Part shown: positions 12,868 through 15,462 of the stretch, one piece after another | Layout: every line of letters begins with the position of its first letter | How positions within the stretch are numbered: the stretch's first letter is position 1 | Source of the DNA: Flaviaestuariibacter sp. | GTDB taxonomy: Bacteria; Bacteroidota; Bacteroidia; Chitinophagales; Chitinophagaceae | Direction: 5' to 3' | NCBI GenBank assembly: GCA_028288515.1 | Contig: JAQBNP010000166.1 | Location: 1-35,745, forward strand | Length of the DNA stretch: 35,745 nt | Translations under genes and position numbers: made by a program | The notes under the pieces: generated by a model | Told to the model about the DNA's origin: nothing | Database searches by the model: none | Seen by the model: the letters and a program-made list of their open reading frames with translations, nothing else

Positions 12868-13545
12868 ATGGCACAAACTGCTGTCGTACAAGGAAAACAA
12901 TGGTGGGCAGGGGGAAAGAGTCCCTTCAACGTCGAGTATGGAAAGCTGATGATGTGGTATTTCCTGATGAGTGATGCCTTCACCTTCGGCGCCTTCCTCA
13001 TCTCTTACGGAACGGTGCGGTTCTCCGCCAATTCCTGGCCTGACCCGAACCACGTGTTCAACGCGTTCCCCGGTGCCGGCCACTCCAACCTGCCGCTTGC
13101 GTTCGTGAGCCTGATGACGTTCATCCTCATCATCAGCTCCGTTACGATGGTGCTTGCGGTTCATGCCGGCCACAATGGCGACAAGAGAGGCGTGTCGAAA
13201 TGGCTGATCTGGACGATCATCGGCGGCTTCGCGTTCCTTGGCTGCCAGGCGTGGGAATGGACGCACCTGTATCATGAAGGCGCGTGGTGGGGCATGAACC
13301 CGTTCCCGAACGCGAACGGTACGGCATCATCCACCAACTTCACAAACTTCTTCTTCACCATCACCGGCTTCCACGGTTTCCACGTGTTCTCCGGCGTCGT
13401 GATCAATATCATCATGCTGCTGATGACCCGCAACAATGTCTTCGAGAAAAAGGGTCATTACCTGATGATCGAGAAGGCCGGTCTCTACTGGCATTTTGTC
13501 GACCTCGTATGGGTCTTCGTTTTCCTTTGCTTTTACCTCGTTTAA
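12868..13545 (+). CDS. coxC: Cytochrome c oxidase subunit III-type protein, second copy
   Basis: A 225-residue subunit III-family membrane protein with the conserved TGFHGFHVFSGVVIN segment and the terminal GLYWHFVDLVWVFVF block. Compared with the first copy it has a longer N-terminal half (PFNVEYGKLMMWYFLMSDAF) that resembles standard CoxC, so I give it the coxC symbol. Subunit III stabilises subunit I and its proton uptake. It lies 57 bases after the first copy and 24 before the subunit IV gene. Having both genes side by side is common in Bacteroidota oxidase clusters. Confidence 0.92.
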   Translation: MAQTAVVQGKQWWAGGKSPFNVEYGKLMMWYFLMSDAFTFGAFLISYGTVRFSANSWPDPNHVFNAFPGAGHSNLPLAFVSLMTFILIISSVTMVLAVHAGHNGDKRGVSKWLIWTIIGGFAFLGCQAWEWTHLYHEGAWWGMNPFPNANGTASSTNFTNFFFTITGFHGFHVFSGVVINIIMLLMTRNNVFEKKGHYLMIEKAGLYWHFVDLVWVFVFLCFYLV

Positions 13546-13569
13546 CCGAACCCTTAAAGAATTTATCGA

Positions 13570-14013
13570 ATGGAACATAGCACAACATCCGAAGTCACGT
13601 TCACCCAACACCACAGCGATGCGGAGTTCAGGAGCAGGGTTCGCAAGACGACCATCCTGCTGAGCGTGATCACCATTATCGAGCTGATCATCGGCCTCGT
13701 CATCTATAAGATGCACAAGGGCGACCATCCAAGCGAATTCCTCATCATGCTGTTCAAAGGCGTGGTGTGCATCCTGACGCTGGCCAAGGCGTTCTACATC
13801 GTCAGCGTGTTCATGCATCTCGGCGACGAGGTCCGCAACCTGATCATGACGATCATCGTTCCGCTGATGCTGTTTGTATGGTTCATCGGGGCCTTCCTCT
13901 GGGACGGCGGATCATACCGAAAGCTGCGCAACAGGTATCATCCCGTGATCGAAACCCCGGCGCGCCAGGGTGAGCACGAGAAGTCGGATACGGCGACGCA
14001 TCCGCTCGACTAG
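13570..14013 (+). CDS. coxD: Cytochrome c oxidase subunit IV (prokaryotic, COX4_pro type)
   Basis: A 147-residue small membrane protein with three predicted helices (about 28-48, 57-82 and 92-115), matching the prokaryotic subunit IV family; MHLGDEVRNLIMTIIVP is the recognisable stretch. It probably stabilises the oxidase core. The C-terminal tail is charged and soluble. It is the last structural oxidase gene, and a strong intrinsic terminator follows 25 bases after its stop, dividing the cluster from the assembly factors. Confidence 0.87.
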   Translation: MEHSTTSEVTFTQHHSDAEFRSRVRKTTILLSVITIIELIIGLVIYKMHKGDHPSEFLIMLFKGVVCILTLAKAFYIVSVFMHLGDEVRNLIMTIIVPLMLFVWFIGAFLWDGGSYRKLRNRYHPVIETPARQGEHEKSDTATHPLD

Positions 14014-14038
14014 CAAAGAATTTAACAAGCTCTACAGA

Positions 14039-14074
14039 CCATCGCCTGCCTACCTTTGCGGCGATGGTTTTTTT
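14039..14074 (+). terminator. Intrinsic terminator after coxD with a promoter-like loop
   Basis: A perfect 8-bp stem, CCATCGCC (14039-14046) and GGCGATGG (14060-14067), encloses a 13-base loop and is followed by seven T (14068-14074). It should terminate the act-cox transcript. The loop contains TACCTTTG, a full match to the Bacteroidota -7 element, so the same DNA may start the next transcript. Confidence 0.75.
14051..14058 (+). promoter_or_regulatory. Promoter -7 element TACCTTTG for the SCO gene
   Basis: TACCTTTG matches the Bacteroidota sigma-ABfr -7 consensus TAnnTTTG. Its last G is 6 bases before ATG 14064, so transcription would begin at about that codon. The same geometry is seen before pdxH and tadA in this window. 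I see no clear TTTG at -33. Confidence 0.5.
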
Positions 14075-14120
14075 ATGTCCCGACCACCAGGAAGGACAGG
14101 CCATCGGAAAAGAACCTACC

Positions 14121-14948
14121 GTGAACAAGACTGCCCTCCTCGGCTTACTGGTCGCCCTTCTTCTGCCTCTCACCGGCTACCTGATCGTGAACTCTTTCAG
14201 CGACCAGGTGGTCCCGATGCCGCGCCACATGATCTATGATTCTGTTTCAACACGCACCGTCAACGGCAAGGAGCAAAACGATACGACGTGGCACCGCATT
14301 CCTGATTTTTCCCTCACCAACCAGCTCGGCAGGCAGGTGGGCTGGAACGACATGAAGGGCAAGGTTGTCGTGGCTGATTTCTTCTTTACACATTGCCCAA
14401 CGATCTGTCCCCGCCTGACCACGAATATGAAGCGGCTGCAGGACGGCATCTCCAGCGGCCAGAAGATCGGTGACCAGCAGCAGCGCTTCGTGCAATTCCT
14501 TTCGTTCACGGTCGACCCCGAGCGTGACAGCGTAGAAGCGCTCCGTGAATGGGGCAACCGGTTCAGCATCGACCCCGACAACTGGTGGCTGCTCACGGGC
14601 GACAAGAAAGCGATCTATGACCTGTCCATCAAAGACATGAAGGTCCTTGCCATTGATGGCAAAGGAGTCGATACCAATTTCTTTCACACGGACGTCATGG
14701 TCCTGATTGATAAGAATCGCCTCATTCGCGGCTTTTACCATGGCCTCGATACGGCCTCGGTCGGCCAGCTCTCGCGCGACATCATTCTCGTTTCGCTGGA
14801 GAAGGACCCGAAGCGTGCCGGCCTCTTTGCAGGTCAGCTCGGCCTTCTCGCCGTCGTCTTTGGTGCAGCGATCGTCTGCGTCATTGCGCTGTTCGTGTTC
14901 CTCAAAAAAGAAAAACCCAGCTATGGCCCTCGCACTGACCAAGAATGA
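14121..14948 (+). CDS. SCO1/SenC/PrrC-family copper chaperone
   Basis: A membrane-anchored thioredoxin-fold protein of the SCO family that delivers copper to the CuA site of oxidase subunit II. The copper-binding motif FTHCPTICP (Cys-x3-Cys) and the distal histidine in NFFHTDVMVLID are present. There is an N-terminal helix (LLGLLVALLLPLTGYLIV) and a second hydrophobic helix near the C-terminus followed by a short Lys-rich tail. The track begins at ATG 14064, inside the 3' arm of a terminator hairpin. I prefer GTG 14121, which places the anchor helix at the N-terminus, but a leaderless start at 14064 is possible. It overlaps the next gene by 26 bases. Confidence 0.9.
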   Translation: MNKTALLGLLVALLLPLTGYLIVNSFSDQVVPMPRHMIYDSVSTRTVNGKEQNDTTWHRIPDFSLTNQLGRQVGWNDMKGKVVVADFFFTHCPTICPRLTTNMKRLQDGISSGQKIGDQQQRFVQFLSFTVDPERDSVEALREWGNRFSIDPDNWWLLTGDKKAIYDLSIKDMKVLAIDGKGVDTNFFHTDVMVLIDKNRLIRGFYHGLDTASVGQLSRDIILVSLEKDPKRAGLFAGQLGLLAVVFGAAIVCVIALFVFLKKEKPSYGPRTDQE

Positions 14949-15462
14949 CCGGCTCGCCAGGGTCGTGATCCTTTCCTTATCGGTACTTGTCTTCGCGGCG
15001 GTGGTGCTGCTGAGCCGCGTCACGCTGCACGTTGACCTCGGCTTCAACGTTCATGTGTTTGCGCAGGTCAATGCCATCATCAACTCTCTGGTCGCCATCC
15101 TGCTGATTGCGGGCATTATCACGGCGAGGCGGGGCCAACATGGGGTTCACAGCCGTATCATGCTCACTGCAATGGTGCTTTCCGTCCTGTTCCTGGTCTC
15201 CTATATCTGTCACCACCTGTTTGCAGGTGAAACCAAGTTCGGCGGGCATGGTCCCATCAGGGCGATCTACTTCGTGATCCTGGGCACGCACATCATCCTG
15301 GCCGCCATCATTCTTCCCTTCATCCTCTTCACTGCCTACCGCGCGCTGATCGGCGAGAATGCGCGGCACCGCAAGCTGGCACGCATCACGTGGCCCATCT
15401 GGTTTTATGTGGCGCTGACGGGACCGGTCGTCTACCTTCTGATCAGCCCCTATTATACCTAG
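14923..15462 (+). CDS. DUF420 membrane protein, CtaM-like oxidase assembly factor
   Basis: A 179-residue membrane protein of the DUF420 family with five predicted helices. Conserved histidines lie in NVHVFAQVNAIINS, ICHHLF and LGTHIILA; in the related CtaM/YozB proteins of Firmicutes this family is needed for heme-copper oxidase biogenesis. The start is the ATG at 14923, overlapping the end of the SCO gene, which suggests translational coupling; the track's upstream start at 14707 is not credible. It closes the respiratory cluster and its stop codon overlaps the stop of the convergent gene. Confidence 0.85.
   Translation: MALALTKNDRLARVVILSLSVLVFAAVVLLSRVTLHVDLGFNVHVFAQVNAIINSLVAILLIAGIITARRGQHGVHSRIMLTAMVLSVLFLVSYICHHLFAGETKFGGHGPIRAIYFVILGTHIILAAIILPFILFTAYRALIGENARHRKLARITWPIWFYVALTGPVVYLLISPYYT

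Follow-up and report, generated by a model that had tools for sequence, protein, structure and literature searches.

A terminator hairpin with a conserved promoter box in its loop between the cytochrome c oxidase genes and SCO in Flaviaestuariibacter: a probable fused terminator/promoter

The window analysed was a stretch of 35,745 nucleotides (contig JAQBNP010000166.1, assembly GCA_028288515.1) of Flaviaestuariibacter sp., whose source genome is a draft of 3.28 Mb in 303 contigs. The + strand of the window was found to contain a cytochrome c oxidase cluster in the order COX2, COX1, UbiA-type, two COX3-type, COX4_pro, SCO1/SenC and DUF420. The gap between COX4_pro and SCO was found to be 107 nt long. 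The features of this junction are as follows.

13570..14013, + strand: COX4_pro (coxD-type cytochrome c oxidase subunit IV), the last gene of the cox cluster (Pfam PF03626, 7e-08, above the gathering cut-off)
14036..14046, + strand: 5′ stem arm AGACCATCGCC, with the core ACCATCGCC at 14038-14046 (sequence, fold and covariation in 16 congeners)
14047..14059, + strand: terminator loop TGCCTACCTTTGC (folds)
14051..14058, + strand: candidate sigma-ABfr -7 element TACCTTTG (T-12 to G-5) in the loop (exact TAHHTTTG; the six fixed bases are the same in 16/16 congeners)
14060..14070, + strand: 3′ stem arm, GGCGATGGT (14060-14068) and two T (fold and covariation)
14063..14064, + strand: predicted transcription start (G or A), 4-5 nt past the -7 element and within the 3′ arm (spacing in F. 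johnsoniae, PMC6847099)
14068..14074, + strand: T7 tract, where the upstream transcript is predicted to terminate and which corresponds to about +5 to +12 of the predicted downstream transcript (sequence)
14121..14948, + strand: SCO1/SenC-type copper assembly factor with a GTG start (Pfam SCO1-SenC PF02630, 2.7e-25; homologues align from the GTG)
14957..15462, + strand: DUF420 membrane protein, next in the presumed SCO transcript (Pfam PF04238, 4.5e-41); the listed ORF is 14707-15462 and 14957 is an approximate start

An intrinsic-terminator hairpin followed by T7 was found by sequence and fold at 14036-14074, 3′ of the COX4-type gene. The core stem contained nine Watson-Crick pairs between ACCATCGCC (14038-14046) and GGCGATGGT (14060-14068), followed by an outward extension of 14036-14037 with 14069-14070. 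The nucleotides G14048-C14049 and G14058-C14059 of the loop may also pair in the RNA. The fold of 14030-14075 was found to have -19.5 kcal/mol against -6.35 +/- 2.15 kcal/mol for the shuffled sequences (z -6.1), and 0 of 200 shuffles were as good. The stretch was thus found to contain both marks of an intrinsic terminator, a stable GC-rich hairpin beyond chance and a U-tract immediately 3′ of the stem. The hairpin with T7 after coxD and a promoter box in its loop, as claimed in the original prediction, was therefore borne out. The hairpin escaped a generic terminator scan, in which loops were limited to 8. No Rfam match was found in 13500-14600 at E up to 1, and an RNA-family identity (riboswitch, leader) was rejected since no curated model matches.

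The + strand of the whole window contained TAnnTTTG at two sites, 14051-14058 and 31801, and TACCTTTG was the sole TAnnTTTG of the coxD-SCO gap. The promoter of the primary Bacteroidota sigma factor (sigma-ABfr) is TTTG / TAnnTTTG (PMC6847099; PMC9723704; PMC7366714). In F. johnsoniae, the consensus was refined by transcriptome mapping to TAHHTTTG (H = not G), with T at -12 and G at -5, starts 4-5 nt beyond the box, and a -33 element that was not clear (PMC6847099). The base at the 4-nt spacing was G in 15 of the 16 species. The motif was found to be enriched in the forward orientation at -40 to 0 before ORFs, with 12 forward against 1 reverse in G000 and 24 against 4 in G077, and it is therefore very probably a working promoter motif in the genus. 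With the register anchored on the box, no conserved TTG of the -33 element (TTTG/TTG) was found 17-23 nt upstream of the -7 box among the congeners. A weak TT was seen about 30 nt before the box and was rejected as a -33 element, being too far away. The missing -33 was not counted as disqualifying because F. johnsoniae promoters likewise contain no evident one (PMC6847099). The GC-rich stem takes the place of the AT-rich motifs usually present at -18 and -28 and, together with the lack of a conserved -33, suggests that the promoter may be weak.

The SCO junctions were sought in 19 genomes of the genus and 16 were readable; those left out were G064 (no SCO match), G072 (contig starting 92 nt before the gene) and G073 (non-orthologous match only). 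All 16 readable coxD-SCO junctions were found to contain a terminator hairpin that encloses TAnnTTTG, the only copy of the motif in the gap, so that the alignment of this junction in related genomes agreed with the original prediction. In G066, the program's best terminator was another, upstream hairpin, and the second hairpin likewise held TACCTTTG. The six bases of TA--TTTG were identical in 16/16 species, whereas the two free bases were CC, TT, AT, AA or CA and never G; on the SCO tree, TT and AT had two origins each. Over the same span of divergence the SCO proteins averaged 56% identity, and the fourfold-degenerate sites of SCO were saturated, with a mean identity of 0.34 (34%) and 0 of 15 shared columns invariant. 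Because these sites are saturated, the neutral persistence of the six bases in 16 lineages does not appear credible. The element would thus be selected and chance excluded, as every readable species of the genus keeps it. The distance from the hairpin to the SCO start varied from 8 to 198 nt among the congeners. The start codon was only 8 nt (G063) and 15 nt (G077) past the hairpin, which leaves no room for a further downstream promoter in these two genomes.

The stem was found to be of two types, a ACCATCGC-like type with a loop of 12-16 nt and a ACCGCCGC-like type with a loop of 8 nt. The eight pairs shared by the 16 sequences were 100% standard and none was broken. Compensatory changes were found in five of the eight pairs (A-U/G-C, C-G/G-C, A-U/G-C, C-G/U-A and C-G/U-A). 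The covariation score was reached by 0 of 500 shuffles, a test which ignores relatedness, and the signal was lost in slid registers. The ten long-stem sequences alone also contained five covarying pairs. The pairs were counted on an alignment of the arms and the motif without the loop flanks, since the whole-element MAFFT alignment misplaced the short-stem arms. Because the stem pairs covary, the hairpin has been kept as a hairpin. The T-run was uninterrupted in most congeners; five species contained the shorter stem, and in three of them (G066, G069, G071) the T-run was broken by C after about five T. The hairpin, the U-tract, the motif, the covariation and the conservation of both parts are properties of the sequences themselves.

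The survey of outgroups covered 48 other genera of the family with one genome each, three of which were without a recognised adjacent coxD. None of these 48 junctions contained TAnnTTTG within a hairpin. A coxD-SCO terminator was found in about 32 of the 48, often with the same arms ACCATCGC..GCGATGGT, and TAnnTTTG was found elsewhere in 12 of the 48, mostly downstream. As most other genera contained the terminator and no TAnnTTTG before SCO, the SCO gene there is probably served by read-through or by a promoter of an unrecognised type. Most of these genera had neither the motif nor a promoter further downstream, so that SCO can evidently be provided by read-through alone, a point that counts against the fused element. 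When the composite was built into a covariance model and searched in 249 family genomes, strong matches (E < 1e-8) were obtained in the genus only, at one site per genome, at the coxD-SCO junction. Four further weak matches (G062, G074) were without the loop motif, and the weaker matches in general were mostly plain terminators, several of them adjoining SCO. Since the composite is confined to the genus and plain terminators occupy the same junction elsewhere, an ancestral terminator with a loop promoter gained later is probable. The genus did not form a clean single clade on the SCO tree, so that the element may have had one origin followed by loss or more than one origin. The coxD-SCO terminator loops of G060 (L013) and G008 (L183) were found to contain GCACCTTTGC, with C for T at -12 and thus one base short of TAnnTTTG; these loops may represent a precursor or a decayed state of the fused element.

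The loop motif was found in 1 of 131 terminators sampled from this genome (about 288 kb) and in 1 of 151 from 400 kb of G077, where 0.4 and 1.2 were expected, respectively. As these counts are near expectation, the fused element is not a general device. A single coincidence is not improbable at 0.4 expected per 131 terminators, so it is the retention in 16 of 16 species that argues against chance. A search with a short-arm pattern in 299 family genomes returned four sites, one of which was the coxD-SCO junction. A dispersed repeat or a general loop preference was ruled out by the 1/131 and 1/151 counts, by the one strong model site per genome and by the four pattern sites.

The ATG at 14064-14066 was found within the 3′ arm and in the reading frame of SCO, as had been stated in the original prediction, whereas the proposed start of SCO at this ATG was not upheld. 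The homologues were found to align from the GTG at 14121, the hairpin-to-start distance was variable (8 to 198 nt), and the ACCGCC-type stems contained no such ATG. A leaderless SCO mRNA from ATG 14064 was thus ruled out by the homologue alignment and the variable spacing, and the ATG appears to be incidental, present only because this stem type reads GATGG. The larger claim, that the oxidase transcript would end and the chaperone transcript would begin at one and the same segment, gained strong support from comparative sequence, namely the 16/16 conservation, the covariation, the TAHHTTTG constraint and the sole -7 box per gap.

The preferred reading is that the 35-base element between the oxidase genes and SCO is a fused terminator/promoter, to which a probability of about 0.8 was given from the sequence comparison. 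In the upstream transcript, the element would form an RNA hairpin with U7 behind it, at which the cox operon would end after coxD. In duplex DNA, the bases of the RNA loop would serve as the -7 box read by the primary sigma factor of Bacteroidota, and the polymerase would start there for SCO and DUF420. As the predicted start (14063/14064) falls in the 3′ arm, GAUGGUUUUUUU.. would be the first bases of an SCO mRNA without the 5′ arm; because the 5′ arm would be missing, the terminator could not re-form on this mRNA and the promoter would escape it. The termination, the initiation, the start site and the effect on SCO relative to oxidase expression are predicted.

Three other explanations were weighed against the fused element. 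The element may be a terminator only, with SCO expressed by partial read-through and the loop motif being either a chance likeness or a hitch-hiking loop that descends from the genus ancestor. Such a supply is plausible in the other genera, which have the terminator and usually no TAnnTTTG, and loop motifs were genome-wide no commoner than chance. This explanation is nevertheless very improbable, as the six key bases were kept in 16 species while the synonymous sites were saturated and the stem and the free positions changed, and as the free positions avoid G just as real promoters do. The conserved bases would equally be exposed in an RNA loop, where UAnnUUUG at the 3′ end of the cox mRNA may bind an RNA-binding protein or a small RNA, and the lack of an Rfam family match was noted in favour of this. 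However, the pattern, including the exclusion of G at the free positions, is the known DNA promoter consensus, the motif is oriented towards SCO, no other promoter was found in the gap in any of the 16 genomes, and the other terminators of the genus are without such a loop; an element acting at the RNA level was therefore considered highly unlikely.

It is also unlikely that the junction is a promoter with an inverted repeat that causes little termination, the hairpin being an operator or a protection of the mRNA 3′ end and cox and SCO being largely co-transcribed. The short or broken T-runs of some congeners (G066, G069, G071) fit this explanation, whereas the copy in the window contained a 9-11 bp GC-rich stem followed by T7, an ordinary terminator was present at the junction in most other genera, and compensatory change maintains the stem with the T-tract directly after it.

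For the fused terminator/promoter, the regulatory outcome may be independent control, occlusion of the promoter by the terminating polymerase, or handover. The decoupling of SCO and DUF420 from the structural genes, as originally predicted, is thus only one possible consequence, and the geometry would fit equally well with coupled transcripts, through occlusion of the promoter or through the terminated polymerase being used again. In E. coli, the polymerase frequently remains on the DNA after intrinsic termination and can re-initiate nearby, and the distance between terminator and promoter is a key variable (PMC6978380, PMC6978322, PMC11347151). This distance was found to be about zero at the coxD-SCO junction. 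By analogy, a polymerase terminating at the U-tract, within about 10 bp of a correctly oriented -7 box, might take up sigma and re-initiate on SCO, a handover that is considered rather doubtful. If it were true, copper-chaperone synthesis would track oxidase transcription at a set ratio; promoter occlusion by the terminating polymerase is the alternative and would have the opposite sign.

The junction shares with sigma-ABfr promoters the exact -7 box, the predicted purine start 4-5 nt downstream and the enrichment of the motif before ORFs, whereas its box is flanked by GC-rich arms in the loop of a terminator, a conserved -33 is missing and its start is a predicted one. It shares with intrinsic (Rho-independent) terminators the GC-rich stem and U7 after the last gene of an operon, whereas the loop inside the eight-pair stem is 8-16 nt instead of short and holds a conserved promoter box. 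The same junction in G010, G030, G037, G045 and G251 contained the same genes and in principle the same function as a terminator followed by a separate promoter, with TAnnTTTG about 10-93 nt beyond the terminator, whereas in this genus it is found inside. As in E. coli polymerase recycling in vitro, a promoter near a terminator could by analogy re-use the terminated polymerase; however, that system concerns E. coli RNAP and separated elements (PMC6978380, PMC6978322, PMC11347151), whereas the predicted termination zone and the predicted start overlap here. A search of the open literature for a bacterial promoter that occurs naturally within a terminator yielded only synthetic parts or unrelated papers, which is weak evidence of absence since little of the subscription literature was covered.

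The terminator and the promoter are each ordinary, and what is unusual is their fusion, fixed across the genus with the stem covarying and the loop constrained base by base. A design rule would follow, in which a promoter can hide in a terminator if the start site lies past the 5′ arm. The junction would also provide a natural zero-distance case for the in vivo question of whether terminated polymerases can re-initiate at a neighbouring promoter, and its two products, the oxidase and its copper chaperone, are functionally linked.

Other overlaps of a terminator and a promoter box were also observed. In G046 (L034), TAATTTTG was found to overlap the coxD-SCO terminator at its T-tract and at the base of its 3′ stem arm. 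The response-regulator/valS junction of G077 (G077:C1, L117, - strand, about 12369) was found to contain a 15-bp hairpin with TAACTTTG in the loop, followed by a T-rich tail directly before the valS start codon; the two genes are co-directional, and this is a second, independent promoter-in-hairpin arrangement. The DinB-like/GyrI-like junction of G262 (L161:1501-1537), from a different genus, contained GCTGTTGTCTGCATACCTTTGCAGGCAACAGC followed by TTTTT, with an ATG about ten bases on. The gene names at the G077 and G262 sites were read from translation, and these two putative sites show that a promoter-in-terminator arrangement can arise elsewhere.
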